Source: Diplonema papillatum (lineage: Eukaryota; Euglenozoa; Diplonemea; Diplonemida; Diplonemidae). Taken from it: DNA of 64,000 nt. This document shows, piece by piece, positions 20,316 to 56,244 of the stretch. Location: the NCBI GenBank assembly GCA_030068145.1, contig JAPJBO010000486.1:1-64000 (forward strand), read 5' to 3'. The number at the start of each line of letters is the position of its first letter. The stretch's first letter is position 1. A program made the position numbers and the translations under genes. Under the pieces are notes generated by a model, which saw only the letters and a list, made by a program, of their open reading frames with translations, searched no databases and was not told the DNA's origin.

Positions 20316-20610
20316 CCGGGGGCTACCTTCGAGTCCGGGGGGGCAAGGGTCCCCGAGGCGGTACTTCTCAGAGACGTTCCGGAGGGCATTCGGGTCGTCC
20401 AGGCCGCTCAGCCCGGTGCTTGGAATTGCCCGGGGGTACCGGAGTACCGGGTTCAGTTGTTGGATATAGATTGTAGTTTTATAGCTTCCGAGCCAGGGTA
20501 TTTCTTAATTTATTCTCACCGGTTCGTACTAACACGTTTCATATTAATAGACGGAGCTTCTTAGATGAGATCATGAGCCTTGACATGTGAAGGGCCGAGT
20601 AGAAACATAC

Positions 20611-22640: not shown

Positions 22641-22723
22641 CTGTGTTATTCGTTGTTGAACTTGATTGGCGCTTACAGAAGCGCACCTCATCGGAAGTAA
22701 AAGGGGGGGTCGAATAATAACAC

Positions 22724-29485: not shown

Positions 29486-29860
29486 CTAATCTTCGTTTGC
29501 CAACTTGTCAGCAACGCAAGCACCGCATAAATTTACGTCGCAATGTGCACAACGACGAGTACCGACCGTGTTCCGGATTGCTGTGTCGCAGCCGCTGCAG
29601 TGCAGTCCCTGCTTGGGCTTAACAACGCGACGCATAGCCCGTTTGCATCCTTCTTCGGTGCATTCCAGCTTTGCGGTGACAGAAGAGGTAACACGAACAT
29701 TGTCGTCGCTGTTTGCATCAGTGGTGCTCTCGTCCTCCGTCTCCTCTTCGTACGCCATCTGATCGCTACTGTCGCTATCGCCCTCACCTTCGATCTGCAG
29801 AACGCGGAATGCCCGGATAATTTCTGCGACGTCATGGTCACTAACCTTCTGCAGATCGAT
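29486..29860 (-). CDS. Cysteine-rich zinc-binding-like reading frame next to the transposase
   Basis: An open frame just downstream of, and shifted from, the transposase frame. It begins as a helix-prone region (KVSDHDVAEIIRAFRVLQI), then an acidic stretch, then eight cysteines ending in C-x2-C, C-x2-C and C-x2-C pairs (LHCSGCDTAI, RRCAHCDVNLCGAC). It probably encodes the C-terminal zinc-binding tail of the transposase, separated by a frame change or a short intron (a GTTAGT donor is present at the shift). The acidic stretch resembles the end of the neighbouring transposase in composition. Confidence 0.5.
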   Translation of the reverse strand: MDLQKVSDHDVAEIIRAFRVLQIEGEGDSDSSDQMAYEEETEDESTTDANSDDNVRVTSSVTAKLECTEEGCKRAMRRVVKPKQGLHCSGCDTAIRNTVGTRRCAHCDVNLCGACVADKLANED

Positions 29861-31481
29861 CAGCTTGCTGGTTATCCATGTCAGGGTCGACGCCTACATC
29901 AGAGTGTGCACTGACTATTTCCGCTGTGTCCGGATCAAATGGTGGTGCGGGGCCACTTTCCATCGTTTCGACAGCAGCCAGAGGTGCATCGTGCTCTACG
30001 ATCTCCACATCGGCACTTAAAACCGGATCGGCGTTGTCAACTACGATGACCTCAACAACAGCAGCGGGTGCATCGTCGACAACAATGACCTCAACAACAG
30101 AAGGAGGCGCGTCATTTTCAACAGTGTGAACTGGGTGACCCTCAAACTGAGAAGCAGCCACAAGGCAAGCAATGGCAACGCAGGCGGACACTGCTCCGTT
30201 GCGTGTCGAAACGAAAAGCTGCGGGAAAAGAAAGCGGAAGCCATTCTTAATCGTCTGCGGTGTGATCAAATCATAGGCCTCCAGCAGCCATTTGAGAATA
30301 AGCGGCCGTAGTGTCACCGTCCGTGTATCGACAGATCCCAAGGCCCCGTGTGCAATGTCAACTTCCGCTACAGCTTGAGGATTTCCTTGTCGCTGCAAAA
30401 CACGTTGGCGACGGCGGCGTTCCCTACGGAGTGCCAAGGAAAGTTGCCCTGAGTACCACTCAGTGAACTTCTCGCGCAGTCTGGCTTTCAGTGGCCCGTG
30501 GACTGTCAAGTCCATGGGCTGCAGGACAGACGTCCAGCCACCGGGAATATAGTACGTCTTGAAGTGGGCTTCTTCCAAGAGCTGCTGGACTTCTTCACCC
30601 GTCTGTCCCGTGAACCGGTCCAGGAGCAACAAGAACTTCTGCGACTGCGGCAATTTCAGCTCAGAGATCCGACGAAGGCGGAACGGCTTCAGAACGTTGT
30701 CGATGTAGGCACGCGTGGTATCGACATTGGCCCATTTGTTCGGCGTTTGAGTTAGATGGAATCCTTTGGTGTCCTCTACATCGGGTAGCACGCGACTTGT
30801 TTTCCCAGCGAAAATCACCTGGTACGGGATACGTGTACCGTCGGCTGCTCCTCCAGTGACAGCTGTGATGCAGCGCTTGTCTCCCATGTATCCAATTCGC
30901 ACGTCATGCGAGCCTTTTGGAGCGAGAGTCGTGTTCGGGCTTGGCATGAACAGCACTGCTGTGTGGTCACAGTTCAGCACACACTCTTGCCGTATGTCGT
31001 ATTCGTCCATGATTCTGTACACGTCCGAACGCATCTGCTCCTTCTTGTTTTCTGTCTGTGTATTGTCCAGAATCCTGCTGGTAGTGGGTCGCCGACGCAC
31101 GTAGTTGTGCTGTTGACACCACTTCCGAGCCCACTCAGTGCCAAGCTCCTCTTCAGTCACCCGAAGCTCGGTGGTTCGAGCTACTGTCTTTGCGAGGAGG
31201 CTGACCAAAGAGTATGTTACGGCCACACCTTGCAAGCGCCTGCGTTCGACCAACTCCAATAGAATGGCCCTTTCTTTCTTCCCCAAGCAAGGCGGGCGCC
31301 CTCTCTTTGGCTTTTCTTCGTCTACCTCGATTGGAGACTCTGGCGTAGCTCCAAGAGCGCCCAGGATGCTGTTCTTTTCGGCGTACAACCGACGCGCCCG
31401 TCCAGCTGTCGCATTTCCCGCCTTTTTCTTCCCACGGCCGTTCCACTTCTGCAGTGCATTCGCGGGTCCAAGCGTCACCAC
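29841..31481 (-). CDS. Pogo-like DDE transposase
   Basis: A 546-codon frame for the enzyme that cuts and pastes the element. An AT-hook-like KPKRGRPP (about 57-64) and helix-turn-helix-like segments (about 66-140, LGTEWARKWCQQHNYVRRR) precede the catalytic domain. Catalytic acidic residues fit the DDE_1/pogo pattern: Asp172 in LNCDHTAVL, Asp288 in FLLLLDRFTG and Asp324 in GGWTSVLQPMDLTVHGPLK, 36 residues after the second Asp. The C-terminal part is acidic and contains repeated VVEVIVVDDAP blocks, an internal duplication. The frame is intact, but its Met is chosen only as the first available one. Confidence 0.9.
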   Translation of the reverse strand: MVTLGPANALQKWNGRGKKKAGNATAGRARRLYAEKNSILGALGATPESPIEVDEEKPKRGRPPCLGKKERAILLELVERRRLQGVAVTYSLVSLLAKTVARTTELRVTEEELGTEWARKWCQQHNYVRRRPTTSRILDNTQTENKKEQMRSDVYRIMDEYDIRQECVLNCDHTAVLFMPSPNTTLAPKGSHDVRIGYMGDKRCITAVTGGAADGTRIPYQVIFAGKTSRVLPDVEDTKGFHLTQTPNKWANVDTTRAYIDNVLKPFRLRRISELKLPQSQKFLLLLDRFTGQTGEEVQQLLEEAHFKTYYIPGGWTSVLQPMDLTVHGPLKARLREKFTEWYSGQLSLALRRERRRRQRVLQRQGNPQAVAEVDIAHGALGSVDTRTVTLRPLILKWLLEAYDLITPQTIKNGFRFLFPQLFVSTRNGAVSACVAIACLVAASQFEGHPVHTVENDAPPSVVEVIVVDDAPAAVVEVIVVDNADPVLSADVEIVEHDAPLAAVETMESGPAPPFDPDTAEIVSAHSDVGVDPDMDNQQADRSAEG

Positions 31482-32183: not shown

Positions 32184-32555
32184 GTGTCATGCCGTCGAAA
32201 CAGCAATTGTCCGCGTTTAGAGCACGTTCACCAAGAACAGGACATCTTCGCATCGAGTGTGGTCGACAAGAGGTTGGTCGAGAGTGTGAAAACACGACTG
32301 CAACACTTATCCACGTTGGGTTTCTTCTTATTCTTCCAGAACGGGAAAAAAATGGTCAAGAGAAAGCTGGTCGTTTCTGACGCCTCGTCTGGGTCGTCTG
32401 ACTCGGTCGCAACAACGACCGAGTCTGACAACGAAGAGCCCGAAGCCAAGAGCGAAGACAGAAAGTCGTCCGAAAAGAAGCCAGCGCCAAAGCGCAAACG
32501 AGGTCGCCCTAAAAGGGCAGCAAACACAAGCCGAGAGGCAATGCTTTCGCGCTGA
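32184..32555 (+). CDS. Small AT-hook protein frame in the pogo-like element
   Basis: A 123-codon plus-strand frame, opposite to the transposase. After a hydrophobic patch it becomes Ser/Glu-rich and highly charged (SGSSDSVATTTESDNEE) and ends with a clear AT-hook core, KRKRGRPKRA, which in known proteins binds the minor groove of AT-rich DNA. A second frame of 96 codons follows (32,662-32,952; Gln- and Pro-rich, no motif). It may be an accessory DNA-binding protein of the transposon, or a carried host fragment. A Met at about 32,352 (MVKRKLVVSD) is an alternative start. Confidence 0.4.
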   Translation: MSCRRNSNCPRLEHVHQEQDIFASSVVDKRLVESVKTRLQHLSTLGFFLFFQNGKKMVKRKLVVSDASSGSSDSVATTTESDNEEPEAKSEDRKSSEKKPAPKRKRGRPKRAANTSREAMLSR

Positions 32556-33325
32556 CCTTGCCTGCAGCGCAGCCCGGCGTAGACGCAAACCCGACAAACG
32601 ACAAGCCGACGACGACAGTCAAAAACGCCGCCAGGTAAGAAGCACGACTCACGCGGCTGACATGCCATCAAGCACGTTGGAGTGGCCGCTGCTGCATCGG
32701 TCTACCTGGCAAGTGCAGCAGTTGCCCTCGCCCGATTTGAGAAACGGTGTGAGAAACGGGGCTGACTGCCAAGCGATACGGTGGTTTACGACGAGTGGTG
32801 CGCCTCCTTTACCACCCAGAGCCGACTTCAGCGGATTACAACAGCAGCAGCGTGCGAAGACGAAAGGACACAAAAAGCCAGCGGAGACACCCACGGCCGA
32901 AGTGAATGACTTCTTCTCCGCAAAGAGCGAAGTGTGCGACTTGCGGCTGTAGCGGCCTACGGCAACTCCACAGACGGAGCAAGTTTATGGTTTGCCCGGT
33001 TTATCCGCCGGGTCTACGACCCAATTTCTCCGGTCAGCCAACCCTAACATGTCGTTATTGGCACTTTCAGCTCGTTGGCTACCGGATCATCGGGTTTGCG
33101 TACGAATTCCGCACAAAACAGCGCGTTTCTGCACGACTCTCAGTCCAGATGGTGACCAGTAATATTTTCGAATAAAATATTGCACAAAAATAATGCGCAA
33201 TTTATTTCGCCTATATGCCTATATTTAGCCTATATTTCGCCTATATGAGCCTATATTTCGCCTATATCTTTATTATTTTTTGGGAAAAACACGAAAATAA
33301 TCGATTATAGGCTAAATATATGGTA

Positions 33326-34932
33326 CGATGCCAAAAGGGGGGGGGGGGGGTTTGGGCGGAAAAATCCCCGCATAGTTCACCAGGGTCTGACGGGTACTGA
33401 GGCCCCATACCCTTCCTAAAACATCATTCTGCGTTCAAATACGCCCTCAGAAGCCTCCGGAGAGCCTTCTATGATGTCCCAAATGCGATTTTGTGGGTTT
33501 TTAGGGGGTCCCCCCGTCTGCTGGCCGTAAACCGCCATAGTAGAAACATATGCAACCTGAAGCTGGGTCGCTTCTCTGTGCAAGATCCCAGCCCAAACAC
33601 ACGTTTTCGGCGTTCTCTAGCACTCTCCAGGCGCATTCGACCCTCGGGCTTCGTGGTTTCTTTCACTCACAGGTGTTCCGGGACGTGCAAAGATAAGGAG
33701 AATGGCCCCCTGCATTGGGGACAGACCGAACTACGCCCTGCCTGTCTATACAGGCTTTGGGGTCAAATTGCACCGGCTTTGGCGCCACATCCACCGTTTC
33801 GGGCTTCGGTTGTGCTGCTTTGGGGTCCATTAAGAACTCTGGTCTGATTTGCGGGACGCTTTCCTCGGTTTTGGCGCCCACTTTCACTGTTCTAAGGCCT
33901 GTTTAGGCTTCTACCTGCATCATGTTATGCTACTCTGGTGATTCTGCAAGGCTTGGTGAACGAAGTAGGACAAGCGTTAAGTAACAGGCGATCATCAGCC
34001 GTTCTCAAACGTCGTCGAAGCGGTTGACTACGACGCGTTCACTTCATGATTTTGAAGCAGGCTTCACCGCTTTCAGGGCAGGCTTTCAGAGCTTTCCTGG
34101 CAATGTCTTCCCTTCTGGCACCTTTCTCACCCATGGCTGCAAAGTGCTTCTCGCTGGATGACTTTGCAGAGGCGGCACATGACCCGAGGGATGTGTGGCA
34201 AGCTCCTGTGCAGTGAGCTTGGTCAGACAAACTGTGTGGCGCACACACCCGCCATGGTCGGCAGTATCACCTGGGACAGTTTGAGTTCTGTTCCGAGACC
34301 CGCTCACGGTGAAGTGGCGCCTACTGGGTCGCTTCCTCTCCTGCTTCGGCGCAAAGTCTTCACCACTGGATGCACTTTGAACGGTGAAAGTGGGCACCAA
34401 AACCGAGCAAAGCGTCCCGCAAATCAGACCAGAGTTCTTAGTGGATCCCAAAGCAGCACGAACGAGACCAAAACGGTGCACATGGCGCCAAGGCGGCGCA
34501 ATTTGACCCCAAAGCCTGTATAGACAGGCAGGGCGTGGTACGGTCTGTAGGGTCCATTCGCCTTGTTTTTGCACACCCCGGAACACCTGTAAGCGAGATA
34601 ATTTATGAAGTCCGAGGGTCGAATGCACCTGGAGAATGATAGAGAACGCCGAAAACGTGTGTTTAGGCCGAGATTTTGCTCCGAGGAGCGACCCAGCATC
34701 AGGTTGCATATGTGTCTTCTATGGCGGTTTACGGCCAGCAGACGGGGGGACCCCCTAAAAACCCACAAAATCGCATTTGGGACATCATAGAAGGCTCTCC
34801 GGAGGCTTCTGAGGGCGTATTTGAACGCAGAATGATGTTTTAGGAAGGGTATGGGGCCTCAGTACCCGTCAGACCCTGGTGAACTATGCGGGGATTTTTC
34901 CGCCCAAACCCCCCCCCCCCCTTTTGGCATCG
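33326..34932. mobile_element. Element with ~560-bp terminal inverted repeats
   Basis: The left arm (33,326 to about 33,888) and right arm (about 34,383-34,932) are diverged inverse complements, sharing CGATGCCAAAAG, a G/C homopolymer, GGGGTCCCCCCGTCTGCTGG and GGTCTGATTTGCGGGACGCT. The 0.5-kb centre has no recognised gene. The left flank is the TATAGGC-rich end of the pogo-like element and similar sequence (CTCATATATAGGCG) resumes on the right, so the element seems to have inserted into that terminus. Superfamily unknown; non-autonomous foldback type. Confidence 0.75.
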
Positions 34933-35660
34933 ACTCATATATAGGCGTACATTAACATTTTGGTGGACATTTTCCACCAAATTTCCGAAAATAGGGGGGG
35001 GGTCAGCCGGCTGACGGATGGATGGATGGTTCTTAACAAGATGCCTGGGGGGTCGTTGTTGTTGGTGATGGTTTTGTGGGATGAAGTAGGGGAAAGAAAA
35101 TTTCTTTTTGCGGTGGTCTCCGCTGGCCTGGTAGTCCGTGCTACCTCCTTTCTTTTACACTCGTTCTCTTCTCTACTCACTACTGTACGTACTCTTTCGC
35201 TCTTTTTCTCTCTTTGGCTAGCCAAAACAAAAGACTTCTGCGACCGACACCACGAACACATTCGCAATGAATGTGGCCCTGGGCCCCCCACGTGCATACA
35301 TGTTGAGCAGGGGTTGCCATGTAGCCCGTATCGGTCTAAGTCAACACTGTTACTTTCATGGGATGTTCACCGGGGAAGGGTCCGACCTAACCGTTAGTCA
35401 ACAGCAACGTCGAAAAGGGGGAGGGGGAAAGAAGATAGAAAATCGGTGGGGTTGACAAGCTCGTAAGTGGTTGTTTGTAGATCAGTACAACCTTAAACTA
35501 CGCCTAGCACACGGCCAGGCGGTCTTTAACGAACCTCCAGTACATTAAACGCAAGTCGGCAGGTCGTCATCAGACGCGGCACGAAAAGCAAACGTCGCCG
35601 ACGCAGCACTTCAGCAATGCGTCCTCTTATTTACAGTGGGCACCGTACCTGAACTCAGCC
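34933..35660. other. No recognised gene
   Basis: Begins with TACATTAACATTTTGGTGGA, a diverged relative of the sequence at 42,208-42,250 in inverse orientation. The remainder has short frames only. Confidence 0.4.
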
Positions 35661-35699
35661 CCGCTAGGCCGAGATTCCGGCTGTTCCGCAGGGCATACA

Positions 35700-38438
35700 T
35701 CACTCCCCGAAGTTGACGTACGTGCAGAGACGTTCGTGCACATGCAGGCCTCTGAGGCCCCGGAACAATCGACCGTCCTTGGTGCGGTCGGTGAAGCAGC
35801 GCTTGCAGCGCAGTTCCGGGGGGTCCTTGGGCTGTTCAGGTGGCTGGTCGTGTGCTGCCAAAGCGGCGTCGGAGGGCATGGGTTGGCAAGATTCCAGATT
35901 CGCGTCGGTACAGGGCGGACTAGAAGGTATCAGCGGGACCTGCGGTGGGACTGTTGTTGCCATCATAGTAGGTGATGGCAAGCGTTCGACCACCTCGTGG
36001 GACGCATTGGGGATTCGTACGTATGCGGCGAGGTATATGTCAGTCCAAGGAACGTTGTCGACGTGCAAGACTCGTTCGTCATCGAAAAGCGTCCATTGCA
36101 TCCCTTGCAAGACGTATGTGACAAAATGGCCGCTTGTCGTATTTTGTCCCGTGTGTACAACCACCGCGGAAAGGCGTAGTGTGCCGTCCGGCAGTCGCAG
36201 GAGGAGCGGTAGGGAAGCGTCATTCCGTAGTCTCGCACCATCGCTTGCGTAAATGCCGAACTGCAACAGCAGGCACTCGGACGCCACATGCACGTTCATG
36301 GTCTCCACAACGGATCCAGCAGCTCCGCAGTCACACCTCCTCTCCGGATTCATAATTCCACGAACACAGAATGCGTCCTCCACCGGCCTTCCACGAGGGA
36401 CTTGAAGACACCGTACCAGTTGATGACGGGTGGATGTGGCGCCACAGGCGATACATCGTGTTGTTGTCGTCATCGTGTTTTCCAGGCACGTCTGGAAAAG
36501 CCGCCAATCCGGACAAGCCTCCGTCGTCTCGTCCGGCCCTAGGGAGCTGTCTGTCCTATCCAGAATTGCAACCAAAGCCTCGTGCGCGTCGTGCTGTCGC
36601 GCATCGCAGAACATTGGGAGCATGGCGAGGATTGTTTCAGCCCCTATCCTTCGGCTGTCTTGGCTGAGCTGGCTCCTCCCCGAGCGCGAGCTTACCAGTA
36701 GGACGAAGTACGTCAAGAACTCCTTCAGGAACCCCCGGAAATTCAGAGGATTCTGCGCAAGACTGTAATACATGTTCTCGATCGGTTCCACACGCAACAA
36801 GAGCTGCAGTACCGCATTGAGAAAACAAGTATTCCCAAGGTTCGGGAGGCCGGCAGGTTCAAACGGTGACGGGTCGAACATGCGGGAGGGCCGTTGGATA
36901 CAAATGACAGCTTGGCGGCCGACAGCGGGTGATGATTCCAGCATGTCAGGCACTGCATGGGACACGTCGCAGCGCCGTTTCGGTCCAGGCTGAGCAGCCT
37001 CATCGTCTCTGCGCTTGCGCTTTCCTTTAGTCGTCCCATCCTGGGGCACAAGATCACGACGCTGCTTCGGAGCCGCAGTGGAAGGCCGATCGGGCGTATC
37101 TCGTTCCGTTCGTGTGCCAGGTCGAGGACGGTCCCTGTATCTCACGAAGGCCTTCTCAGCGAGCAGCCTCTCGACCGCTTGGTCGATGGACTCCAAGTCG
37201 GGCATCTGCAGAATGCGTTCCACTTCATGTACGAGCCACACGAAGTGCGCACGGATCTTCTCGCAGTGATCACCGAACTTCGCTTCTGGGTACGTGTCTA
37301 GTAACCATTTACGAAACCCACTTTTTAAGACACTCTTGCGGTACCCCCGTCTCATGAGCTTCAGCACCGTGTTGTTCATCTCGGTCTTAAAGTCATGGAG
37401 GTTGTTCGCAATCCTGCCGTTACGCACAAGCGCTCCGATGAGGATACTCGACCCAAAGTTCGATGGAGCCGTGGAGAGCACGGATGTGTACGCCAAGGGC
37501 TGGTATCGGTATGCCTTCGCTTTGTCGAGGACTGACAGGCGCATGTATCTCCTCCCGGACATCTCGGAGACTTCATGTCGAATCCGAATACCAAGGAAAG
37601 TGGCGTCCCCAACCTTGGCGTTTGTCTGTTTGTACCTCATGTTGTACACAGATTCCGGTGGGGGTTTTGTGCCGAAACACAACAGATCGTCAATGAAGCG
37701 GCGTGTCAGGCTAAGCAATGCCGCACGTTGCGTGTCCCCGTCTTCCAAGAGTCGCATCATGTATTTTCGCTCTTTCGCATAGCAAAAGAGGTTGGCGATG
37801 TCCGGGGAAGCGTTCGCACCCATTGGGATGCCTAGCGTCTGCCTCATGAGAACCCTATTGACCAGAACATAGGTATTCACCAGGCAGAAAGACAAGAGGG
37901 TCTTGAGCTCCTGCGCCGAATACGCTGCTTCATGTGACCGTACCTCCGTGTTTACCTTAAAGGCGAAACAGCGCTTCTTACGAGTCGGCCCGTGTTGGCT
38001 CTTCGGACGTACTAATACGAGTCTTCCCGCGTCCACGTTCAAACGTGCAGCCTCCGCCGCGAAGGCCTCATTAATCGTGTCCGCAACCGCATTAAGAAGC
38101 TCCTCAAGCTCCAGCTGGTCATACATCGTTGTAAAGTCAAATGTACCAGCGTCCAGCTGCGCGAGTTCGTCCGCGTGTGTCTTCAGGAAGAAGGCCGTGT
38201 CGTCGCTCGACTCCGTGATCCAGAAGTACCGGTACCCAGTCGCGTTGAACCGAATGTCGTCTTCCCGCCGGAGGATGCTCATGATCGCCTTCAGCAAGCC
38301 GGTCAGGTCCAGTTGCGCGTCCGTCGTAGACGAGAACGTGGTCTTAGGGCGGGCGTCCCGTCCAGCATCGGCCGCCTCGGAGTCGGAGTCGACACAGTTC
38401 TTCCGCGAAACCCCAGCGATGTACCGCATGGACGTCAC
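35700..38438 (-). CDS. Penelope-like RT fused to a ubiquitin-specific protease domain
   Basis: A 912-codon frame. The N-terminal half is a Penelope-like reverse transcriptase: FDFTTMYDQL (about 100, first catalytic Asp), LGIPMGANASPDIANLF (about 202) and RRFIDDLLCFG (about 246, catalytic Asp pair). A basic linker (about 440-490, KGKRKRRDD) leads to a USP-type deubiquitinase: Cys box GLPNLGNTCFLNAVLQLL (530-547, Cys538), QHDAHEAL (615-622), zinc knuckle CIAC (662) with CDC (702), His box SGHFVTYV (769-776, His771) and WTLFDDERV (782-790). The domain would cut ubiquitin or a ubiquitin-like modifier from proteins. The C-terminus has a C-x2-C...H-x-H-x3-C cluster (878-905). The RT begins upstream of the first Met, within the 95-nt overlap with the GIY-YIG frame: LYGTLKLHK is readable there. 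All USP catalytic boxes are present. Confidence 0.9.
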   Translation of the reverse strand: MTSMRYIAGVSRKNCVDSDSEAADAGRDARPKTTFSSTTDAQLDLTGLLKAIMSILRREDDIRFNATGYRYFWITESSDDTAFFLKTHADELAQLDAGTFDFTTMYDQLELEELLNAVADTINEAFAAEAARLNVDAGRLVLVRPKSQHGPTRKKRCFAFKVNTEVRSHEAAYSAQELKTLLSFCLVNTYVLVNRVLMRQTLGIPMGANASPDIANLFCYAKERKYMMRLLEDGDTQRAALLSLTRRFIDDLLCFGTKPPPESVYNMRYKQTNAKVGDATFLGIRIRHEVSEMSGRRYMRLSVLDKAKAYRYQPLAYTSVLSTAPSNFGSSILIGALVRNGRIANNLHDFKTEMNNTVLKLMRRGYRKSVLKSGFRKWLLDTYPEAKFGDHCEKIRAHFVWLVHEVERILQMPDLESIDQAVERLLAEKAFVRYRDRPRPGTRTERDTPDRPSTAAPKQRRDLVPQDGTTKGKRKRRDDEAAQPGPKRRCDVSHAVPDMLESSPAVGRQAVICIQRPSRMFDPSPFEPAGLPNLGNTCFLNAVLQLLLRVEPIENMYYSLAQNPLNFRGFLKEFLTYFVLLVSSRSGRSQLSQDSRRIGAETILAMLPMFCDARQHDAHEALVAILDRTDSSLGPDETTEACPDWRLFQTCLENTMTTTTRCIACGATSTRHQLVRCLQVPRGRPVEDAFCVRGIMNPERRCDCGAAGSVVETMNVHVASECLLLQFGIYASDGARLRNDASLPLLLRLPDGTLRLSAVVVHTGQNTTSGHFVTYVLQGMQWTLFDDERVLHVDNVPWTDIYLAAYVRIPNASHEVVERLPSPTMMATTVPPQVPLIPSSPPCTDANLESCQPMPSDAALAAHDQPPEQPKDPPELRCKRCFTDRTKDGRLFRGLRGLHVHERLCTYVNFGE

Positions 38439-40053
38439 TTCCTTGTGCAGCTTCAGGGTGCCATATAGGTATGGGAGGACGTTCGATGAGTGTAATCCTT
38501 CCCGTCCGAGGTAGGCCTTGTGCCTCGCAATGACTTGTTGAGGCGTCTCTTCGCTCGGGGAGTAGCAACTCCAACAGTTTTTTACGCGCTCCAGCCGTCA
38601 GCTCCGGATCGGCTCCCACCCGGGAGAGGTCAACCGTGGCTAGTATCTTCCTCCGTAGCATCCTTGCGAAGTGCGGAGGGGCGTCCTTGAATTGCTCCTC
38701 AACGATCTGGGTCACAGCTTTGTCGACCTCCCTGCAAACGGCTTCTTCCCCACCGTCCGGTCGGAACTTGCGACCCTTGTCAAAAAGCGAAATTAGCTCG
38801 CTCGACGTTTTGAGGAGGTGTGCCTGCCCGCACGCATGCCCTTGGATGTGGTATCCGTCTAGAAGGTAGCGTTGGCAAGGGCATTCACCAGGGGGAGGGG
38901 CCGGGGCAGCAGTTGTTTGTCGCGAAACATCCGTAAAGTTTGACAGAAGGACCCCGAGGGGAGGATTAAGCGACGTGGAAACCCTCGTGTTCACGAAGTC
39001 CGTTGAGTCCGCGAGCATTTCACGGAGTTCGGTATCGTGACGGAAAACGGCGGCTAGCTTCCTTTCATCCATCATCTTGCTCACCTGCCGTATGCAGAAC
39101 CAAGGCGTTCGTGCTGCACTCTTTTTCTTCTTCGCAAGATGGTTGATCTCACTAAGCCTCGCCGTGAGCAGCTCGTCCAGGATTGCTACCTTCGGGTGCT
39201 GCAGGTGCTCAACCATGAACATTCGCACCCAGGTACGAACTCTGTAGACGCGGCTCTTCATCCACGGGTTCACGTCGTATGCCCGTAGGGTGTCCTCATC
39301 GAGTCCGAACATGTAATGCAGCTGCTTCCGGATGCCGAAGTATCGGCCTCGACTTTGGTCCACGTGGATCTGCCCATCCTTCACATGCACCCAGGCGTCT
39401 CCGCGCTCTCGAGGATTTTCCGGGGTAGACTGCCCGCTGTCCGGTTTGCCCTTGAACGACGGAGCAGATCGCGGCTTCTTACCTCGCTTGTTAAAGCCGC
39501 TTGCAGTACTAACCATATTGAACTGCGGCTTTAGCCTCGCGATGAAAGCCATTTCTATCGGCTCGGCAACTTTGTCGAAGTTACCCCCAGCCGCATAGAA
39601 CGCTTCTGGGACGTCGTAGAGGATGAACGCGTAAGGCGGCGAGGGGAGGTTCTGCAAGTGTCGCTTGAACCTGTCCTGCTTGGTGTTCCGGCCAGACCAA
39701 TGCTTTGTAACCCGCTCCTGCATCGTCTTGCTCGTCTTGCCGATGTACAGCAGGTTGGCGTGGGCATCAACTAGTCCGTAGATGAGACCCGTAGCGCGGT
39801 AGTTGCTCGCGTCTGTCGGGCGCTGGAGTCTCATCGTCGCGTACGTGTGGTCTAGGAGCCTGCGATACCTCTTCTGGAACCGGGCCGTAAACAGCTCGCC
39901 CTGCTCTTTCCACTTCGGCCAATCTATCTGTGTCGTCTTCTCCGTTTTGCCACGTACACAGTCAGTTTGGAAGAATGGTGCGAGAAAGGGCTTTGCGAAC
40001 TCCGGGCGTCGACGCATGTCCGCGTCAGCTGGTGGCAAACGTACCATGTTCAC
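38344..40053 (-). CDS. GIY-YIG endonuclease reading frame of the Penelope-like element
   Basis: A 569-codon frame upstream of the RT frame and overlapping it. It contains a GIY-YIG nuclease: GLIYGLVDAHANLLYIGKT (89-107), the catalytic Arg region MQERVTKHW (about 111-119) and the metal-binding Glu region EPIEMAFIARLKPQFN (about 164-179). Further on is a Cys/His cluster, CPCQRYLLDGYHIQGHACG, and a helical region that would lead into the RT. The nuclease would nick target DNA for priming. Its position before the RT is the permuted order described for Naiad/Chlamys-type Penelope-like elements, opposite to canonical Penelope. The element is on the same strand as the host gene, within its intron 7. 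Confidence 0.85.
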   Translation of the reverse strand: MNMVRLPPADADMRRRPEFAKPFLAPFFQTDCVRGKTEKTTQIDWPKWKEQGELFTARFQKRYRRLLDHTYATMRLQRPTDASNYRATGLIYGLVDAHANLLYIGKTSKTMQERVTKHWSGRNTKQDRFKRHLQNLPSPPYAFILYDVPEAFYAAGGNFDKVAEPIEMAFIARLKPQFNMVSTASGFNKRGKKPRSAPSFKGKPDSGQSTPENPRERGDAWVHVKDGQIHVDQSRGRYFGIRKQLHYMFGLDEDTLRAYDVNPWMKSRVYRVRTWVRMFMVEHLQHPKVAILDELLTARLSEINHLAKKKKSAARTPWFCIRQVSKMMDERKLAAVFRHDTELREMLADSTDFVNTRVSTSLNPPLGVLLSNFTDVSRQTTAAPAPPPGECPCQRYLLDGYHIQGHACGQAHLLKTSSELISLFDKGRKFRPDGGEEAVCREVDKAVTQIVEEQFKDAPPHFARMLRRKILATVDLSRVGADPELTAGARKKLLELLLPERRDASTSHCEAQGLPRTGRITLIERPPIPIWHPEAAQGSDVHAVHRWGFAEELCRLRLRGGRCWTGRPP

Positions 40054-41168
40054 CGCGAAGCTCTTGCGAGGATTGTGGGGCCGGGTCCGTATCGTAAAGG
40101 GTGGTGCTCTGTACAGGGATCGGGGTTGCCGGGGGTACGACGTTCAACACCGTGCCCGACGAACGACGTGCAATACTCATGTTTGACGCTACGACGCCGG
40201 AGCCGTAAGTCCCCCCTGGAGGCCATCGGTACGCCCTGCTGACGCAACTCGCATGGTTAGTTCGCTGACGTAGTCATGACGTTTGTGACTACGTGTGTAC
40301 GACACTGGGCTAGTCAGCTGCCGCGACAAAAAGACGCTTGACTGCAAGACCGCCCCGCCTGGTCGCTCGCGCGACGTGCGAGAACGCTGACTGGTAACAA
40401 CCTCCGCACTCCCTTGTACATAGTTTTAGATGTAAATGCCGACGAAGACAATAGACGCAAAGCAGCAGTTCTGGATGATGGCGAGTACCTTTTGAGTGTG
40501 GTTTCGCTCAAGAATGAAAGGTGACTCCAATCCCGAGATGTCCGTGGTCAATGCTTCATGCTAGGACGGAATGAGGGGGCGGAGTCTAGGTGGATTGGCG
40601 GCCGTACCCACCCAGTCCCCTCAAACGCCGCGGGGGGACCTCTCGCAAAAACAACCCGCCCACGATCTGAGGCCTCTGACACAGTGTACAGAGGTCGAAA
40701 ACCAACTGCCCATGGCACAACCGACGAAGAAACGCAGCCGGTACAGGTAGGGAGACGGTTAAATCGTATTAACTTCGCCCCGCTGTACCACAAGACATCG
40801 GCAACGAGACCGGGCAGAGTCTAGGCTTGGTGCCATCCTGCCCCCGTGCGGCCTCGCTACTACAAACCGGGAAAACCCCCAACCAAGACCACAAAACGCA
40901 CCCTCCGAACAAAGCGCGCTAAGACTTGAGCTTAGCAACAAACCGACACCCCTAACAACAACACCGTGTACGTCGCGTGAAGAGTACCGCCAATAATCCA
41001 GAACAACCCGCTCACCACCCAATCCTGCTACCACCCCTTTGTACAGTGCACAGCCTCCCTCAAGCAATTCAAATCAGTTCCGTTACGTTCCGTCAACGCC
41101 TCAGCCGACGCATTCTACTGGAAAACCGAAATGGTGCCGTGCAGTGGTCGTAGCAGTAGCATCATGTA
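40054..41168. other. No recognised gene; probable 5' flank of the Penelope-like element
   Basis: Includes the likely leader of the Penelope-like element. I searched by eye for hammerhead ribozyme cores (CTGATGA...GAAA), which such elements often carry, and found no convincing one. Short frames only. Confidence 0.4.
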
Positions 41169-41640
41169 GGGTTTACTGTCCACCGCCAGTGTGAGTCGCC
41201 TGAAGTGCGGGTGGCTGGTGTTTAAGTCCAGCGTTTTGCATCGGCCTACTCTACACGGCAGGGGTAGGTCAGGGGCAGCGCCGTCTGTTGGGTGCGGATG
41301 TCGGACAAGCGCAGGTCCGGCGTTTTGCATCGGTCTACTCCGCACGGCACGGGTAAGTCAGGACGGACAGCGACGTTTGATGAGTGGATGTTGGTCACGC
41401 GGCAACGTACGGCGTAGGGACCGTGTGTAACATATCGTCGGGAGAAGGGAGAGGAAGGGATGGGGCAGGTAGCGTCAAGTAGGTTCTCTGACTACCGCCT
41501 GTGTGAGCCGCTTGGAGTGCGGGTGGCCGGTGTGCAACTCCAGCGCCTTGCATCGGTCTACTCTACACGGCAAGGGTAAGTCAGGACGGACAGCGACGTA
41601 TGATGAGTGGATGTTGGATACGCGGCAAGATGCCTGGGGG
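41169..41640. repeat. Degenerate tandem repeat with TTGCATCGG(T/C)CTACTC
   Basis: Three imperfect copies share GCGTTTTGCATCGGTCTACT, an ACACGGCA(A/G)GGGTA(A/G)GTCAGG block and, in two copies, ACGGACAGCGACGT followed by TGATGAGTGGATGTTGG. No coding function is evident. Confidence 0.7.
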
Positions 41641-41679
41641 GGGTAAAAATGTCACCTGTGGGAATCGACCCAAAAAAAA

Positions 41680-41775
41680 GTCCTTCGTGGGGTTCGAACC
41701 GCGGACCCTTGTGTCGACCCCTGTTTTTCCACCTGAAAAATCACGTTTGGATTTCGTTCCAACGACAACAAACGA
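41680..41775 (-). repeat. tRNA-like (SINE head?) sequence 1
   Basis: The minus strand contains GCGGTTCGAACCCC, an internal Pol III B box, followed about 10 nt later by AAGGAC and a run of T. A full cloverleaf cannot be folded. The same B box, GGAC and T-run arrangement recurs at 46,990-47,080 and 47,285-47,360, so it is probably a tRNA-derived retroposon. Confidence 0.4.
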
Positions 41776-41987
41776 CACCCTGATGTTTAGGCTGCACACA
41801 ACCTGATGATCTCCCACAAGGCTGGTATGTGCTCAGTAACGTGCCGGACACCATTTCATAGTCCACATGGCACAAGAACGTCCAGGGGTGTGCGAGAATC
41901 ACGCTCACGAAGTATGAAACCGTGTAATCTTCGAAAATCCGTCTGAAGACCATGCAGTGATGCATTTTTTTTTTCCTGCCGACAGTA

Positions 41988-42060
41988 GCAGTGTGGCTGA
42001 GTCGCAAGGTTGGCGACTCCGGAGCCACTGATCCGGGTCCAAACCGGATTTCTTTTCATT
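41988..42060 (+). repeat. tRNA-like sequence 2
   Basis: TGGCTGAGTCG (A-box-like) and a perfect 6-bp T arm, ATCCGG-GTCCAAA-CCGGAT, followed by TTTCTTTT. The anticodon arm is weak and the acceptor ends do not pair, so a functional tRNA is unlikely. It looks like a tRNA pseudogene or SINE head. Confidence 0.4.
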
Positions 42061-42194
42061 TTTCGTCGTCAGCAGCGGCCAGACGGAATTTTGTTCACCC
42101 AATCTGGTGCCCGGGCAGGTGGACGTTTTTCAATTTTAGTCAGGTGGATGCACACGCGTGTTCTTGCCGAGAACACACGTGCACCGTTGTAGGG

Positions 42195-42450
42195 GGGGGG
42201 GGGGGGGGGGGGTCGGTTTTCGTGGAAAATGTCTACCAAAATGTTAATTGTGGCTTCCCTGAAGGTAAATTTCCCTTATATCCCGCCCCTAACAAATATG
42301 TGCCCTTATATCCCGGTTCAAAACAAATAGGTGTAATTACCTTATATCCCTAGGGTTGAAAAAGCTTTCCCTTATATCCCTAAATAGGGATATAAGGGAA
42401 TGGCATTAGGGATATAAGAGAAACTCTTTAGGGATATAAGAGAAAAGAAG
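42195..42450. repeat. CTTATATCCC hairpin cluster, mixed types
   Basis: After a G-run come TTTCCCTTATATCCCGCCCC and CCTTATATCCCGGTTC (also seen at 11,215-11,260), then a different type with CTTTCCCTTATATCCCTAAA and its inverse TAGGGATATAAGGGAA, then inverse copies of the TAGGGATATAAGAGAAA type. Two sub-families of the same core are thus adjacent. Confidence 0.75.
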
Positions 42451-42679
42451 TCCTGAGTAAAATTGAGTACAATGGGCTGGAATTTGGGTCGGAAATTTGG
42501 GTCAAAAGCTCTACACCACAGGGATACTCTGCTGTTCTACGTCCACTGTCATATACGTTAGGTGTGTTCCATCAACAGACACGAGAGGGACGCAGCATGC
42601 ACCAGAGCTGCGAATGACACAAGCAACCATACGCCATCAGTTTCCTTCACACCAACAACACTGCCTTCGTCATGCTCTA

Positions 42680-43321
42680 CTGGGGGGGCCCAAATACAAT
42701 AGGTATAATATTGTATTTGGAGGGGAAGGATAGAGAAAACCGGGTTTTCAAACAGTCTGGATGCTTATAGTCAGGGTGCAGGCACCTGCAGGTCAAAATT
42801 GGAGGAAATTTGGCAAATATTTTGTGGGATGGAAAGAGCTGCCTCCCGCTCCCGGCATGTATGAAACCTTTTCTGCACTCGATGTGGCCAAAAATCTGGC
42901 ACCCAGATAGCACTTCAGACTTTAGAAAAACCACTCCGCCGAGGAATCGAACCAGCACCCTCAGCATCACATGTGGGTGTGGTGACCGCTGGACCACGGG
43001 CTAAAAAAAAGCGGGCCAATTATTTTTGTTTTGGAGTAGGCCTGAAAAATATGCGCCCCCAAACCTGAGGAAAATGCCACAGACAGCGAAATCAAGTAGC
43101 AGGATTGAACTTTCGGCTTTGGGAGTGTTCCACATTGAACTTCTCTCGAAAAAGAAGCTGCTCTCGTGACGGGAAGCCCGTGGAACCCCCTGCAAAACCC
43201 CACTGGGGACAAATAATATTGTATTCCGAAAAAATGCTCAACGAAACCCCCATTTCAGCGTACCTATTGTATTCCGAAATAATATTGTATTTGAGTACCT
43301 ATTGTATTTGGGCCCCCCCAG
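42680..43321. mobile_element. 642-bp element with TA-flanked inverted repeats
   Basis: Terminal inverted repeats CTGGGGGGGCCCAAATACAA plus TAGGTA match on both ends, with TA immediately outside each. TA target sites fit Tc1/mariner-type elements. Internal copies of ATTCCGAAATAATATTGTAT and AATATTGTATTTGG extend the inverted ends. There is no transposase. A tRNA-like stretch lies inside on the minus strand (about 42,935-43,003), with TGGTCCAGCGG as A box and GGTTCGATTCC as B box. Confidence 0.7.
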
Positions 43322-43329
43322 TAGCACAT

Positions 43330-43900
43330 GGGCTGGAGCTTTGAATCCGCCGTGTCAAACGTGTGGGTGTCGTGCCCGGAACAGGCTTTGGGGCTGGGGC
43401 TGGAGCATTTGCCTGCGGTGGTAACAGGACGAATTCGGCGGAGAGACGTGCGAAGAGATAACAGCGCCGTCGGCGATGCAGATTATCGCCACAGATTCTT
43501 TGCATTCTAACCCAAACAAATTCGGCGGGCTTGCTTCTTTCGGCAGACAGTGGATGCAAATATGTTGCACAGTGTCGCCAGTAGCACTCCTGGTACTTCC
43601 TTTAGTGCAGAAACGACGTTGGACACTCCTGTCACTGCCGCATGTGCCAACAAGGTTCCCAGGGCTTTGTCAGAATCAACTAGGGTCAGGTGGCTGATTG
43701 CAACTAGTATATCCAGTGCAGACATGTTTTCTTCGTTTGTATTCTTCCGAAACCCATTGCCGCCATGCCATTCCTGCATAGCTGAAACTCCGGCTACTTG
43801 ACGATGCCAGGGGGTGCGGTATGGCTTCTTCCCATTCGCAGCCGCCTTCCTCAGTTTCAAAATAATGGGCAAAAAAAAAAACACGAAGGACACGTGGGCA
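43330..43900 (-). other. Unassigned minus-strand open frames
   Basis: A 128-codon frame (43,893-43,507) has a helix-prone, protein-like stretch (ALDILVAISHLTLVDSDKAL, then LLAHAAVTGV) followed by cysteines. It has no relative I recognise and no splice or start evidence. It may be a remnant of transposon coding sequence. Confidence 0.25.
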
Positions 43901-43914
43901 GAAAATAATAATGT

Positions 43915-44285
43915 TTTCTCTTATATCTCTAATAGGTTCTCTTACATCCCTAGTTGTTTTCTCTTATATCCCTAGCTATTTTCTCTATATCCCTAGTTAG
44001 GGATAAAAGGGAAAATAGCTAGGGATATAAGAGAAAGTCGAAAATACCTTCGGGCTAAAGAAGAAATCTGCCAAACAAATATGTGCCCTTATATCCCGAA
44101 CCGGGATATTAGGGCACCAAATTTGTTTTGAACCGGGATATAAGGGCACCAAATTTGTTTTGGACCCAAGATACTGGGGCCAAAAAGTTCGAAAAAACTC
44201 GAAAAAAGTTCGAAAAAAGTTCGAAAAAAGTTCGAAAAAAATCGAAAAAAGTTCGAAAAAAGTTCGAAAAAAGTTCGAAAAAATT
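43915..44285. repeat. TTCTCTTATATCCCTAG hairpins, GTGCCCTTATATCCCG hairpin, AGTTCGAAAAA array
   Basis: First come four variants of TTTTCTCTTATATCCCTAG, with the inverse GGGATATAAGAGAAA near 44,020. Then comes the TATATCCCGAACCGGGATAT hairpin with AAATTTGTTTTG linkers (44,086-44,165). Then about nine units of AGTTCGAAAAA or near variants (44,185-44,282). The last two parts are collinear with 11,290-11,475. Confidence 0.8.
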
Positions 44286-51262: not shown

Positions 51263-52915
51263 TTTTTTTCGGGGGGGTGCCCTTTTGTCAGCCCAGTCCT
51301 CCCCAGTTCTGGGATCGGTCCGGGTCCCGTGAAATTAGGTGAAATTTGTTCCGAAACTGAAAATTTGTTCCGGGAAGTGAAAACTTGTTGTTGTTGTTCG
51401 TCTGCTGGCGAGCTCTCTGACTCTTCAGAACCCTTCCTGGGACATTCTTCGACTTGGCTCGGCCCCTTCTTGTGTGTCGTAGCGGTCTCGTTTGCGCAGA
51501 GCAGGTCGCTGAAGCTCACCGCTTTCTTTCGTCGGCGATCTGACACGAGCAATTAGGTAACCACAAGCTAGTGATGCTGAATGTTGTCACATGTGGATGC
51601 TGAGGGTTTCTGATACCAGATTCCGCTCTTCTGTGCCTACCACATCGTCTTTCTTCTGCTGCTTCCAACCCACGTTCTCATGTTTACTTGTATGGCCGTG
51701 CCGGTGGGGTCGTTGGGGTTGTCGGTGGGGTTCTTCCTGCCGTCGCTGTCTATGCTCCGACAGCACCGCCCGATGGTGCCCCTTCCGGTGACGGTTGCCA
51801 CCCGTCGTCGTATACAAGGTGCACTGTGGCAAGCGATGCTTAACGCGCACCTTACTGCGTGGCCATCGCTTTTCTGGCTGGGTTCAACATTGCCCCGGCG
51901 TACATGTGCTTCTCACCTCCTGCTGATCGCACTCCCTCTTTGTCTTACGCCGCCGAAAACCCCCGGTCTTGTAGCCTGTGGCGCGGCGGTGCTCCCACCG
52001 TCCTGACCGATCGTATCTGGATAGCCCATTATTGGAAGCGGATGTGCTTTCCCGATTGTCTTCAGCACGTTGGCCAACGGCCTCGCATAACGGAGCATCG
52101 TCGCCACAACGCCCATTGGTATAAAGAGCTTGGTGCAGACCTCAAGTCATCACAAGCGGATGCGTGTGGTTGCGTCGGCTCCATGCAGTCGCAACTCTTA
52201 TGCTTCTTTCTTCCCTCTTTTCCGAGCCTCTTTCTTCTCGAACGTGTTCGGTGCCCTCCCGTCTGTCAAGACACCTCAACAGAGTATGTTGTCGACAACA
52301 ACTCTGCTTGCTCCATGGTATTACTGGAGGTCAAAAAAACTCTTCACAACAAGTGCTCCGTCCGCCACGGCTCTTGTGCTTTGTTTTTACGATTTCCTCT
52401 GCCACAGCTCGTTTCGTGAAGCTGGCGGCTAACATCCAGTTGACTTAGGAGGTTTGGATATTGGCTGCATTATTACGTTGCAGGCATTCCGACTACGGTG
52501 AGTTATCACATTCTCGCATATTCTCGCCCGTGCGAGCATATTGCGAGAATCGGGGCCGCGCTTACGCGAATATGCGAGAATACGAGTCGGATCGGATGTA
52601 TGCAGCCGACGAGTCGGATCGGATGTATCGGGCCACCCCGGGTGTAGTAGTTAGGAAGGTGCAAACATGGCGACTGCTACAGTAGTCCTGCACGAGACTT
52701 GGGCACGTGCCTCGCGTCAGGTCCGTTCACACGTGGTTCGGTAGTTAAAGCACTTGGGATCTTCGGTTTTTTGTCTGGCAGCTTTTGTCGAGCATTACCA
52801 TCCAAGCTGGCGCTTAATTTGTGAAGGTTTCTGCAACGAAAGGTTGCATCAACCCAATCCACCGTGGACCACGTACATTTTTTGAGTCCATATATTTGCA
52901 CATGAAACTACATAC

Positions 52916-54546
52916 CATCACAGCACTCAGCAGGAGTGCAGTCGACGTTGACGTTTCCAGAGTTTCCAGCGCAAATAATGTTCGCTGCATTGATCTTTCG
53001 AAGTAGTCCTCCGGAACATCCTGTAAAAAAAGCATTAACGCAAGTTGGGGTGCACGTATGGGTCCACGAGTTTCCATTCCATGCAGGCCCACCTCCGCCT
53101 ACGACTGCGTACCCGTCATTACACAGACAAGTTCCAAAGCCGCTTGCATTGGGGGGGCAGTCGACTGGGTTGCAGCCATTTAGCGCGAAAGGGCCATTAC
53201 TTACGGGACACGCGATACTCGCAGTACCCGTGTATCCGACTTGACAAGACACTGGTGAGCACGAAGCAACTGTTGTGCAGGCCGCTCCCCCGGTGAAGGA
53301 ATATCCAATGTTTGTAGCTGGCGCAAGACATGAAATTTCTTCACAGCAGATTGCCTGTGTGCAAGCCGGGCAGGTGGCTGCTGAACAGCCTCCTGCACCA
53401 TTGCAGGGAACTGTTGTCGGATTGGCTCGCGGAACGAATCCCGTCGTGCACCCCGAAAATCGAATGTTTCCGCAGTGTGGCACACAGGTATGTGACCATG
53501 TTGACGACAGGGCGTTCCAGTTAGCAGCTCCGCTAAACCCGGCGTTGCATGTACAGATGCCACGGGGGCTTGCATTGTCAGGGCAGTCTACCTCTACACA
53601 GCACTCTGCATCGCTGCAAATTGCGTTTGTGCACAGGATTTGGCCCGGAGTTTGTGAGGGTCTGTAGCCTGTGCCGCATGTATGAGACGAACAGGTCAGA
53701 TCGCAAATGATACCCCCTGTTGGAGGCGCACCAGTGGCTGCATTTGCTGCACAACGAAGTGTGCCAGGAGCCCCGGCATAATTAGGACCACATTGTAGGT
53801 CGCACGCAGGATTGGTGTTGGTCGTAAGTTGAATGCCATTGGTGCACGAACCAGCAGTACCAGCACCAGATCCGACAACGCCAGCCGGGAAAGTGTATGC
53901 CGCACAAACATTCTCTATGCAGATGATGTCTCCCGGGGAGGACACTGGTGCAGCACCGTTTCCACCATTCGCAGGACAACTGAGAGTAGCGCCTACCCCA
54001 GTGAAACCGGGACTGCACACGACCGTGCATGAAACAGGGGCACTGATGGGCCTGAGTGTAATCGGATTAGTGCAAGGGCTGCCGCTCCCACCTGTCACAC
54101 CAGCAGCGAAATTATAAGCTGCGCACGCCTTCTCCACACACGTCATCGTCAGGCCATTTGTGACACCTTGCAGACTACAAGTAACTGTCTGAGACTGCTG
54201 AATGTATCCAGGACCGCAACTAACAGTGCAGGACGGTCTGCTGATTGAAGTCAAGACCAAGCCGTTGGTACATCCTCCACTTTGAGACCCAGGAATGTGT
54301 CCAGCTTGAAATGTAATTGCAGTGCACTGACGCTCCGTGCATGTATGTTCCCACGCTGGCGGATTCCAAACTGGCGTTCCCTGGTATCCAGCATCGCAAG
54401 TGCATGTGCCAGGAGGGAGTGCATTCGGAGGGCAAGCAGCAAAAGTTGGACAGCATGCAGCATCGTTGCCTGTGTCTCCTGCTGTGCATTGAGCAACCCC
54501 ATTTACAACGGATTCGCAAAGTACGCCCGACTGGACACGCAGGCGC
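52916..54546 (-). CDS. Exon 4 of cysteine-rich membrane protein (largest ectodomain exon)
   Basis: A 1,631-nt exon, entering in phase 2 and leaving in phase 1. It encodes about 543 residues of extracellular modules: three of the C-P-x4-G-x-C-x-C / W-x5-W-[TS]-H-[TS]-C type (CPPNALPPGTCTC, CPDNASPRGICTC, CPPNASGFGTCLC); three or four of an AY-F-x-A-G type (ENVCAAYTFPAGVVGSG, then CTNGIQL, CGPNYAGAPGTLRC); and sushi-like and CC-type modules (GYRPSQTPGQ, SDAECC). The reading frame is open throughout. The acceptor is CAACAG and the donor GTATGT. Confidence 0.88.
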
Positions 54547-54798
54547 CTGTTGTTGATGGTGCGTACTTTCGTATTGGTAAGATGAGCTGAGGCCGGGCTC
54601 AACAAATTGTATGCTCGGTCGAGTAAGCAAAAAGAGGCTCTTGTGGGTAGAATGCTGTAGCACAAGCTCAAACAATTCAGTAGCGTCGGCGCCAAATGGT
54701 CGCGCAGCCAGAAAATACGTTTTAGCAGTCACTACAACCAGCGGCGGATCTTTTCAACTACAAAGCCTAGGTCGAGTCCATTCTCAGCAAATACATAC

Positions 54799-56146: not shown

Positions 56147-56244
56147 CTGTGTGTGGGTACAATGGGTTCTACCGGAAATACGCATGGCGACAGGGTTTTG
56201 CACCCTCGCGCTTCGAAAACTTGAATTGGAAAGAAATGGCACAC

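Follow-up and report, generated by a model that had tools for sequence, protein, structure and literature searches.

Whether a mobile element can own a deubiquitinase, or has merely come to lie against one, is the question raised by a locus of the marine protist Diplonema papillatum, located on the minus strand of a 64,000-nt stretch of DNA that is called the window here (contig JAPJBO010000486.1, positions 1 to 64,000). A preliminary description of the locus had proposed that a Penelope-like element (PLE) encodes a ubiquitin-specific protease (USP) behind its reverse transcriptase (RT). The present analysis leads to the view that the locus very probably stems from a recently mobile PLE with an N-terminal endonuclease, whose polyprotein has gained an active C-terminal USP kept by selection; this estimate covers the enzyme and not the choice of its substrate. 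The view is based on the order of the encoded domains, the recent multiplication of the element, its poly-C targets, its pseudo-long terminal repeats (pseudo-LTRs), the selection acting on the USP, and the presence of the same architecture in a second clade of PLEs.

Region 35700-40053 of the minus strand holds two overlapping open frames, 38344-40143 and 35700-38597. The second one, of 965 codons, carries the RT motifs DFTTMY, GIPMG and FIDD followed by a match to the Pfam UCH family PF00443 (E 1.9e-23, residues 583-848), so that the central proposal, a USP encoded by the PLE, stands. The catalytic boxes GNTCF, QHDAHE, SGHF and FDD and the zinc pairs CIAC and CDC, which had also been described, are all present in this frame (their positions being set in its intact relative P0003), as is the C-terminal CxxC...HxxxxC motif of the announced terminal zinc finger. 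Profile searches had been suggested for both domains; UCH was recovered, and Pfam RVT_1 gave no match reaching E 0.1 in the RT-USP frame of the window. The single open frame ascribed to 35700-40053 has to be given up. The window copy lacks 110 bp at 38565 that are present in the fetched copies spanning the site, by which about 37 residues of the RT fingers are gone and the frame is shifted, hence the two frames; a single frame is found only downstream of this deletion. An intron at 38565 in place of the deletion was rejected, as the gap exists at the DNA level and the edge codons imply, by reasoning, no GT...AG ends.

The proteins closest to the window copy are two D. papillatum gene models, P0003 (1485 aa, 99% identical) and P0004 (1499 aa, 62%), both annotated as putative ubiquitin carboxyl-terminal hydrolase 16. 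P0003 is a single uninterrupted protein that displays the domain order of the element, with a GIY-YIG endonuclease, a CxC linker, the RT, a second linker, the USP and a small C-terminal zinc finger. The endonuclease and the CxC linker had been overlooked; the Penelope-type RT of the preliminary description is retained, but the element is not of the plain type, having an N-terminal GIY-YIG domain without the CCHH motif. Pfam PF01541 (GIY-YIG) matches the upstream frame of the window with an E of 3.5e-5 and P0003 with an E of 9.8e-5, both just above the curated cut-off. A profile made from ten PLE proteins matches I-TevI (1mk0, E 5.3e-4), with the GIY, YIG, R and E positions visible in the alignment, and this was the sole match in the sequence profile search of the PDB, in which no TERT or RT was found. 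The RT aligns with P0013-P0017 (E 5e-33 to 3e-8) and with P0018. The USP boxes are kept in both P0003 and P0004, the UCH domain having the catalytic Cys, His and Asp/Asn as well as the zinc Cys pairs, and the nearest solved enzymes in a PDB sequence search are USP12, USP36 and USP46, with weak scores of 37-47 bits (PDB 5k16, 5l8h, 8bs3).

When the window's own assembly (271 Mb, 2910 contigs) was searched in six frames, all counts being lower bounds, 48 rows were found to match the RT-USP frame, 47 of them with an identity of 99-100% and one, which has a stop, with 95%; 31 of the 48 span nearly the whole 965-residue query. As two rows on contig C214 represent one copy, these rows amount to at least 47 places, including the window. 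Further copies with the RT-USP junction, which the preliminary description had proposed to look for, therefore exist in the assembly, and in other PLE lineages as well. The alternatives that it had named, a chance readthrough into a host gene or a junction created by the assembly, were rejected, since RT and USP are joined in this way at 47 places, which are spread over many contigs. Twenty places were fetched, including all 14 that have an open frame of at least 1562 codons. From ATG to stop, the frame measures 1485 codons in each of these 14 intact copies, which occupy 13 sites. They differ by 0-9 nt over 4458 nt (median 4, 91 pairs), and some of the open reading frames (ORFs) are identical at different sites. 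This near-identity of the 14 ORFs, together with the identical ORFs at separate sites, argues that the element of subfamily 1 (defined below) has multiplied recently. The check for duplicated insertions covered the fetched copies, and separate insertions are fewer than 47; the readable flanks of 19 fetched copies and of the window represent 19 distinct sites. The assembly carries some loci twice, as haplotigs or duplicates, and L010 (C1849) and L014 (C993), with 835 identical flanking bases, are one insertion on two contigs.

The ends of the copies are those of a retroelement that inserts at C-runs. Their 3' end is common, and truncation of the 5' end to varying extents was seen in at least nine copies by blastn against the window neighbourhood. 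A run of at least six C directly follows the 3' end in 18 of 20 copies including the window (17 of the 19 distinct sites), and the chance of such a run is about 0.0004 per site, as computed from the runs counted in the window. The exceptions are CTCCCC and CGCCCCCCC; L028, which ran off its contig, was left out, and the true 3' flank of L013 has ten C. C-rich runs are also found in the 5' flanks of the nine truncated copies. L019 and L016 have target duplications of 38 bp and 37 bp, each present as two exact copies, that extend well past the C-run, and the window copy has one of 16 bp that includes the C-run; in the other seven copies examined, the shared string consists of the C-run and at most a few bases. 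In eight of nine full-length copies examined, among which L010 and L014 represent a single site, the 3' untranslated region (UTR) is repeated ahead of the leader, and these upstream repeats are, by their position and content, taken as pseudo-LTRs. Their starts differ where visible (L010, L012, L017, L021), and the 105-nt repeat of L014 is ended by the contig edge. The junction, at which CGACCCCCC is joined to ATTCCAGAAGGG, was read in seven copies and separately in L013. No pseudo-LTR was found within the stretch fetched for L024.

A search of the assembly with PF00443 scored 149 places. Fifty-four of them form subfamily 1 (85.3-85.9 bits), 41 form subfamily 2 (76.5 bits, many with 1585-codon frames) and 17 belong to other PLE lineages (76.7-81.1 bits); the remaining 37 include exon pieces of host USPs and a host gene described below. 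About 112 of the 149 places thus look PLE-borne, an assignment by bit-score class except for the copies from the RT-USP search and the fetched loci L047-L056. Among the latter, GIPMG occurs in the same open frame as the USP in L047-L051 and L053, and not in L052 and L054-L056. Since the score classes assign most of the scored USP-domain places to the element, its automatic annotation as a host USP16 is misleading.

Selection was measured in eight pairs as the ratio of nonsynonymous to synonymous divergence (dN/dS, Nei-Gojobori method). Between L009 and L053 (dS about 0.70), dN/dS is 0.157 for the RT, 0.175 for the USP, 0.435 for the linker between them and 0.69 for the tail; between L009 and L056 (dS about 0.70), the values are 0.219 for the RT (over 56 codons), 0.174, 0.47 and 0.39, and between L053 and L055 they are 0.16 for the USP, 0.43 for the linker and 0.69 for the tail. 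The comparison of subfamilies 1 and 2, for which dS is saturated, gives 0.05 for the RT, 0.12 for the USP, 0.29 for the linker and 0.31 for the tail. In the close pairs (L047 with L048, L049 and L052; L009 with L055), where changes are few, the USP has values of 0.19-0.31. The RT-USP linker lies at 0.29-0.50 in seven of the eight pairs. With a USP ratio of about 0.17, near that of the RT and below those of the linkers, the selection on the USP suggested earlier is borne out: in diverged pairs, the USP appears to be under purifying selection, with a constraint similar to that on the RT or slightly weaker, and stronger than that on linker and tail.

The association of a USP with a PLE is found outside Diplonema as well. 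The USP part of the window matched P0018, an RT-USP protein, and a search with an RT-USP profile, whose length range ended at about 1470 residues, found 557 proteins. Among the 120 matches listed, mostly without a USP, seven have a precomputed PF00443 match. P0023, P0025 and P0026 are of the Naiad type and combine a GIY-YIG domain (N-terminal, by hmmscan) with RT and UCH, and P0018, P0028, P0030 and P0035 have RT and UCH without an endonuclease. In the alignment, the CCHH residues (CC...H...H) are present in P0023, P0025 and P0026 and absent in P0003, P0004, P0005 and P0015, and the CxC motif occurs in every row that reaches that far.

These data bear on the idea that the USP is a non-functional passenger, that is, a captured host fragment spread by recent amplification. 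Transduction of host sequence by retroelements does occur, according to passages of PMC6431247, and the recent copies are too similar for a test of selection; against it, the diverged pairs show a dN/dS of 0.12-0.18 for the USP versus 0.29-0.69 for linker and tail, the catalytic boxes are intact in both intact subfamilies, and the same architecture recurs in a second PLE clade, all of which makes a passenger very improbable. Several observations nevertheless weigh against an active USP under selection in a mobile element. The copy in the window is itself defective. When subfamilies 1 and 2 are compared, at saturated dS, the constraint on the USP (0.12) is weaker than that on the RT (0.05). The tail of L047 differs from those of L048, L049 and L052 by nothing but 2-3 silent changes, the finger reaches 0.97 in L047-L048 and L047-L049, from four changes, and the linker of L009-L055 (0.22) is not above the USP (0.31). 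L053, L055 and L056, which were used in the dN/dS pairs, have no SGH[FY] match and look decayed. Lastly, of the Naiad-type USPs, seven in all, P0030 and P0035 no longer have the oxyanion Asn, and P0025, P0028, P0030 and P0035 carry Ser or Ile in the third catalytic place, the next Asp being kept; because of these altered positions, activity may not have been kept in every lineage.

How often PLEs acquired a USP was addressed with trees of both domains. The RT tree comprised 57 rows, including 45 first-listed other RTs; P0028 and P0035 were dropped as too short, and P0005 was counted as USP-bearing although its gene model keeps just the start of the domain (21.0 bits, below the cut-off). Its eight USP-bearing rows fall into two clades. 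The Diplonema element groups with P0013-P0015 (Shimodaira-Hasegawa-like approximate likelihood-ratio test, SH-aLRT, 100), and the others lie among Naiad-type RTs (SH-aLRT 97). A single USP-bearing RT clade was rejected by the approximately unbiased (AU) test (p 5e-6). In the USP tree of 35 rows, the Diplonema and Naiad-type PLE USPs stand apart, with a joint clade not rejected (AU p 0.13), and when ten rows were dropped (seven long or odd, three near-duplicates), the two PLE groups joined with a support of 82/78. The joining of the groups in the reduced tree and the AU result for 35 rows speak for a single, ancient capture, made by an ancestor that Chlamys-like and Naiad PLEs share, with many later losses. 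In the same direction, the best non-Diplonema match of the Diplonema USP is another PLE USP, that of P0018, if narrowly (51 versus 47 bits). A single acquisition is nonetheless somewhat doubtful: one USP-bearing clade is rejected in the RT tree, though losses could still account for that, the branches joining the two USP groups are long, and five host USPs of Diplonema reach higher scores (71-90 bits) with a profile of Naiad-type USPs than its six PLE USPs do (64-69 bits).

The nearest USP found outside a PLE lies in a 702-codon frame on contig C9 (L057:3302-5410), in which a metallo-beta-lactamase (MBL) domain (PF00753, E 3.2e-8) ahead of the USP replaces the endonuclease and RT. The USP of this MBL-USP gene shares 57% identity with the P0003 USP, and the tree places it outside the six Diplonema PLE USPs (99/95). 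No significant match to an RT or endonuclease was found around the gene in the 9 kb fetched. Downstream of it, there is a PLE-like 3' UTR, 78.9% identical over 209 nt, with a local score of 191 versus at most 30 in 100 shuffles. Because the gene also holds this 3' UTR, the direction of transfer is left two-way: either a truncated PLE may have given the host gene its USP, or the PLE may have taken its USP and 3' UTR from such a gene. A bolder reading, somewhat less likely than not, is that N-terminal-endonuclease PLEs took up a deubiquitinase on two or more occasions, once in a protist and once in a Naiad lineage, where it would serve as a lasting defence against control of retrotransposons through ubiquitin, and that the module moved between the Diplonema element and its host, the MBL-USP gene being derived or donor. 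Viral contigs gave no match to P0018 or P0003, as single-protein queries that detect close relatives only.

What the USP might do can be framed by the likely course of transposition. The translated polyprotein would bind its own RNA, the GIY-YIG endonuclease would nick poly-C/G tracts, and the RT would copy the RNA into the nick by target-primed reverse transcription. Meanwhile, the attached USP could strip ubiquitin from the element's own protein or ribonucleoprotein (RNP), averting the proteasome, or from ubiquitylated proteins met at the insertion site. The preliminary description had already named protection of the RT and defence against ubiquitin-based silencing as possible roles. Protection of its own RNP is the single most likely role, if a tentative one, ahead of deubiquitination of chromatin or repair proteins. 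For the latter to hold, the USP would deubiquitinate chromatin (H2A/H2B) or repair factors at the nick, opening the site or blocking a repair or silencing response. Some USPs do act on histones, the zinc-knuckle USP is intact, and its fusion to a DNA-nicking and -copying protein would deliver it to the target; but there is no subfamily-level match to a histone-directed USP, the nearest solved ones being USP12, USP36 and USP46 at 37-47 bits, and the automatic name USP16 has no test behind it, so that a host-directed role appears rather unlikely. The place of the USP within a long multidomain protein recalls viral proteases and points to a third role, that of a processing protease freeing the endonuclease and RT. 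The Gly-Gly that ends ubiquitin is the site behind which USPs cut; neither LRGG nor RGG was found in the six proteins checked (P0003, P0004, P0018, P0023, P0025 and P0026), and no Pfam match to a ubiquitin domain was obtained in the proteins scanned. In the lack of an LRGG or RGG site, processing by the USP is highly improbable. Retroelements of the PLE class, which is related to telomerase, can carry a USP of their own, to judge from intact recent copies, selection and occurrence in two distant clades, and a possible restriction of such elements by turnover or signalling through ubiquitin becomes open to experiment.

In the window, the features of the PLE copy are distributed as listed in the table. 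The frame 35700-38597 of the preliminary description is retained, but 35700-40053 is not the whole element. By blastn, the 3' end is that of the other copies (a few bases off in L022). The 5' end appears incomplete or rearranged by comparison with full-length copies, which have about 2.9 kb from pseudo-LTR to ATG. The leader segment that is inverted in the window copy is whole in L009-L014, L017, L021 and L024 and partial in L015, L018-L020, L022 and L023, and blastn revealed more units of the leader subrepeats in other copies.

Table. Features of the PLE copy in the window, listed in the direction of the minus strand after the element as a whole.
Feature	Position	Strand	Basis or remark
PLE copy, part common to other copies	35047..41628	-	blastn of window 32500-44000 against fetched copies
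5' copy of target duplication CCCCCCAGGCATCTTG	41626..41641	.	Repeat search
5' leader with tandem subrepeats, spacing about 223 bp	41170..41628	.	Repeat search
Inverted 983-bp leader segment	40137..41119	.	Orientation opposite to other copies that hold the segment (blastn)
ORF 5' part, ATG at 40047 to frameshift	38565..40047	-	Start codon as in P0003
GIY-YIG endonuclease domain	39508..39810	-	Pfam PF01541 E 3.5e-5, I-TevI profile match and alignment
CxC...GH linker motif (GECPCQ...QGHACG)	38827..38886	-	Alignment with Naiad-type and Chlamys-like PLEs
110-bp deletion site breaking the frame	38564..38566	-	Comparison with fetched copies spanning the site
Reverse transcriptase, fingers incomplete in window copy	37158..38564	-	Motifs and alignment
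RT motifs DFTTMY, GIPMG, FIDD	38138-38121, 37832-37818, 37697-37686	-	
RT-USP linker, K/R-rich, fast-evolving	36873..37157	-	dN/dS
USP domain	36018..36872	-	PF00443 E 1.9e-23; PDB matches USP12/36/46; zinc pairs CIAC, CDC
USP catalytic codons Cys, His, Asp	36827-36825, 36128-36126, 36083-36081	-	Transferred from P0003 motif positions
C-terminal CxxC...HxxxxC zinc-finger-like motif	35703..35807	-	Kept in P0003 and P0004
3' UTR	35047..35699	-	Last 209 to at least 532 nt repeated upstream of full-length copies as pseudo-LTR
Poly-C target tract and 3' copy of target duplication (CCCCCCAGGCATCTTG on minus strand)	35037..35052	.	

A palindromic element of about 1.6 kb (33316-34942), with inverted arms of 376 nt (92%) and more and ends made of G/C runs, adjoins the 3' end of the PLE copy, and a 31-nt inverted pair (34951-34981 and 42218-42248, 94%) encloses the PLE along with neighbouring repeats. 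Elsewhere on the minus strand, 16935-22686 contains a 1126-codon frame with RVT_1 (E 4.5e-19) preceded by a 715-codon frame, probably a LINE-like (long interspersed nuclear element) retroelement. At 29841-31481, a 546-codon frame with DDE_1 (E 4.4e-14) and a weak Tc5-type helix-turn-helix encodes a pogo/Tc5-like transposase, and frames of 595, 328 and 196 codons at 52908-56316 have no Pfam match at the thresholds used. The window begins with a CT-rich, GCTGCTGCC-like tandem array with strong AT skew (1-1619). At other loci, the D. papillatum models P0006, P0008, P0009, P0010 and P0012 fuse PLE pieces to other proteins, for instance an Mg/proton exchanger or RRP12; they are probably annotation artefacts or exonised insertions.

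With respect to known systems, the Diplonema element shows the features of PLEs, with a PLE-type RT, a GIY-YIG domain, pseudo-LTRs, and 5' truncation with target duplications. The hammerhead ribozyme motif is a canonical PLE feature that is not known from N-terminal-endonuclease PLEs, and no Rfam match to it was found at E up to 1 in L009, L047 and L058. The endonuclease ahead of the RT with CxC between them is the layout of the N-terminal-endonuclease PLEs. Chlamys PLEs have an N-terminal GIY-YIG domain without CCHH, a CxC linker, a PLE RT and pseudo-LTRs, and Naiad PLEs have the order endonuclease-CxC-RT, CCHH in the endonuclease and an insertion bias for microsatellites. By these group definitions, the element is to be classified from its predicted domains as a PLE of the N-terminal-endonuclease (Chlamys/Naiad) kind, probably nearer Chlamys, because its endonuclease is N-terminal and lacks CCHH. 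Its RT stands beside P0013-P0015, in a comparison that contained no named Chlamys sequence. PLEs with permuted domains (Chlamys, Naiad) were reportedly described by Craig et al. in 2021. That work is cited in passages of PMC12477816 and PMC11167929, the former of which also report Chlamys-group PLEs in Ectocarpus. The literature searched, to which Craig et al. 2021 did not belong, contained no paper on a USP in a PLE, so that absence from print is not shown; in the main text of the D. papillatum genome paper (PMC10161547), the words Penelope and ubiquitin do not occur.

The Diplonema element thus shares with Chlamys PLEs the N-terminal GIY-YIG domain without CCHH, the CxC linker, the PLE RT and the pseudo-LTRs, and differs from them by its additional C-terminal USP and finger, its diplonemid host and its poly-C targets. 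With Naiad PLEs, it shares the order endonuclease-CxC-RT and an insertion bias for microsatellites, and some Naiad-type PLEs also have a USP; in contrast to them, it lacks CCHH and its RT belongs to another clade. Outside PLEs, an OTU-like protease is carried by Helentrons (PMC6431247), and OTU and Ulp1 proteases reportedly by Ginger and LTR elements (PMC2836005). These are likewise mobile elements whose cysteine protease can act on ubiquitin or SUMO, but they belong to other element classes and their proteases to other families. USP12/USP46 and USP36 have the USP catalytic boxes in common with the Diplonema enzyme, but the similarity is weak and they are free-standing host enzymes, whereas the MBL-USP gene on C9 combines a related USP with a PLE-like 3' UTR and differs by its metallo-beta-lactamase domain.

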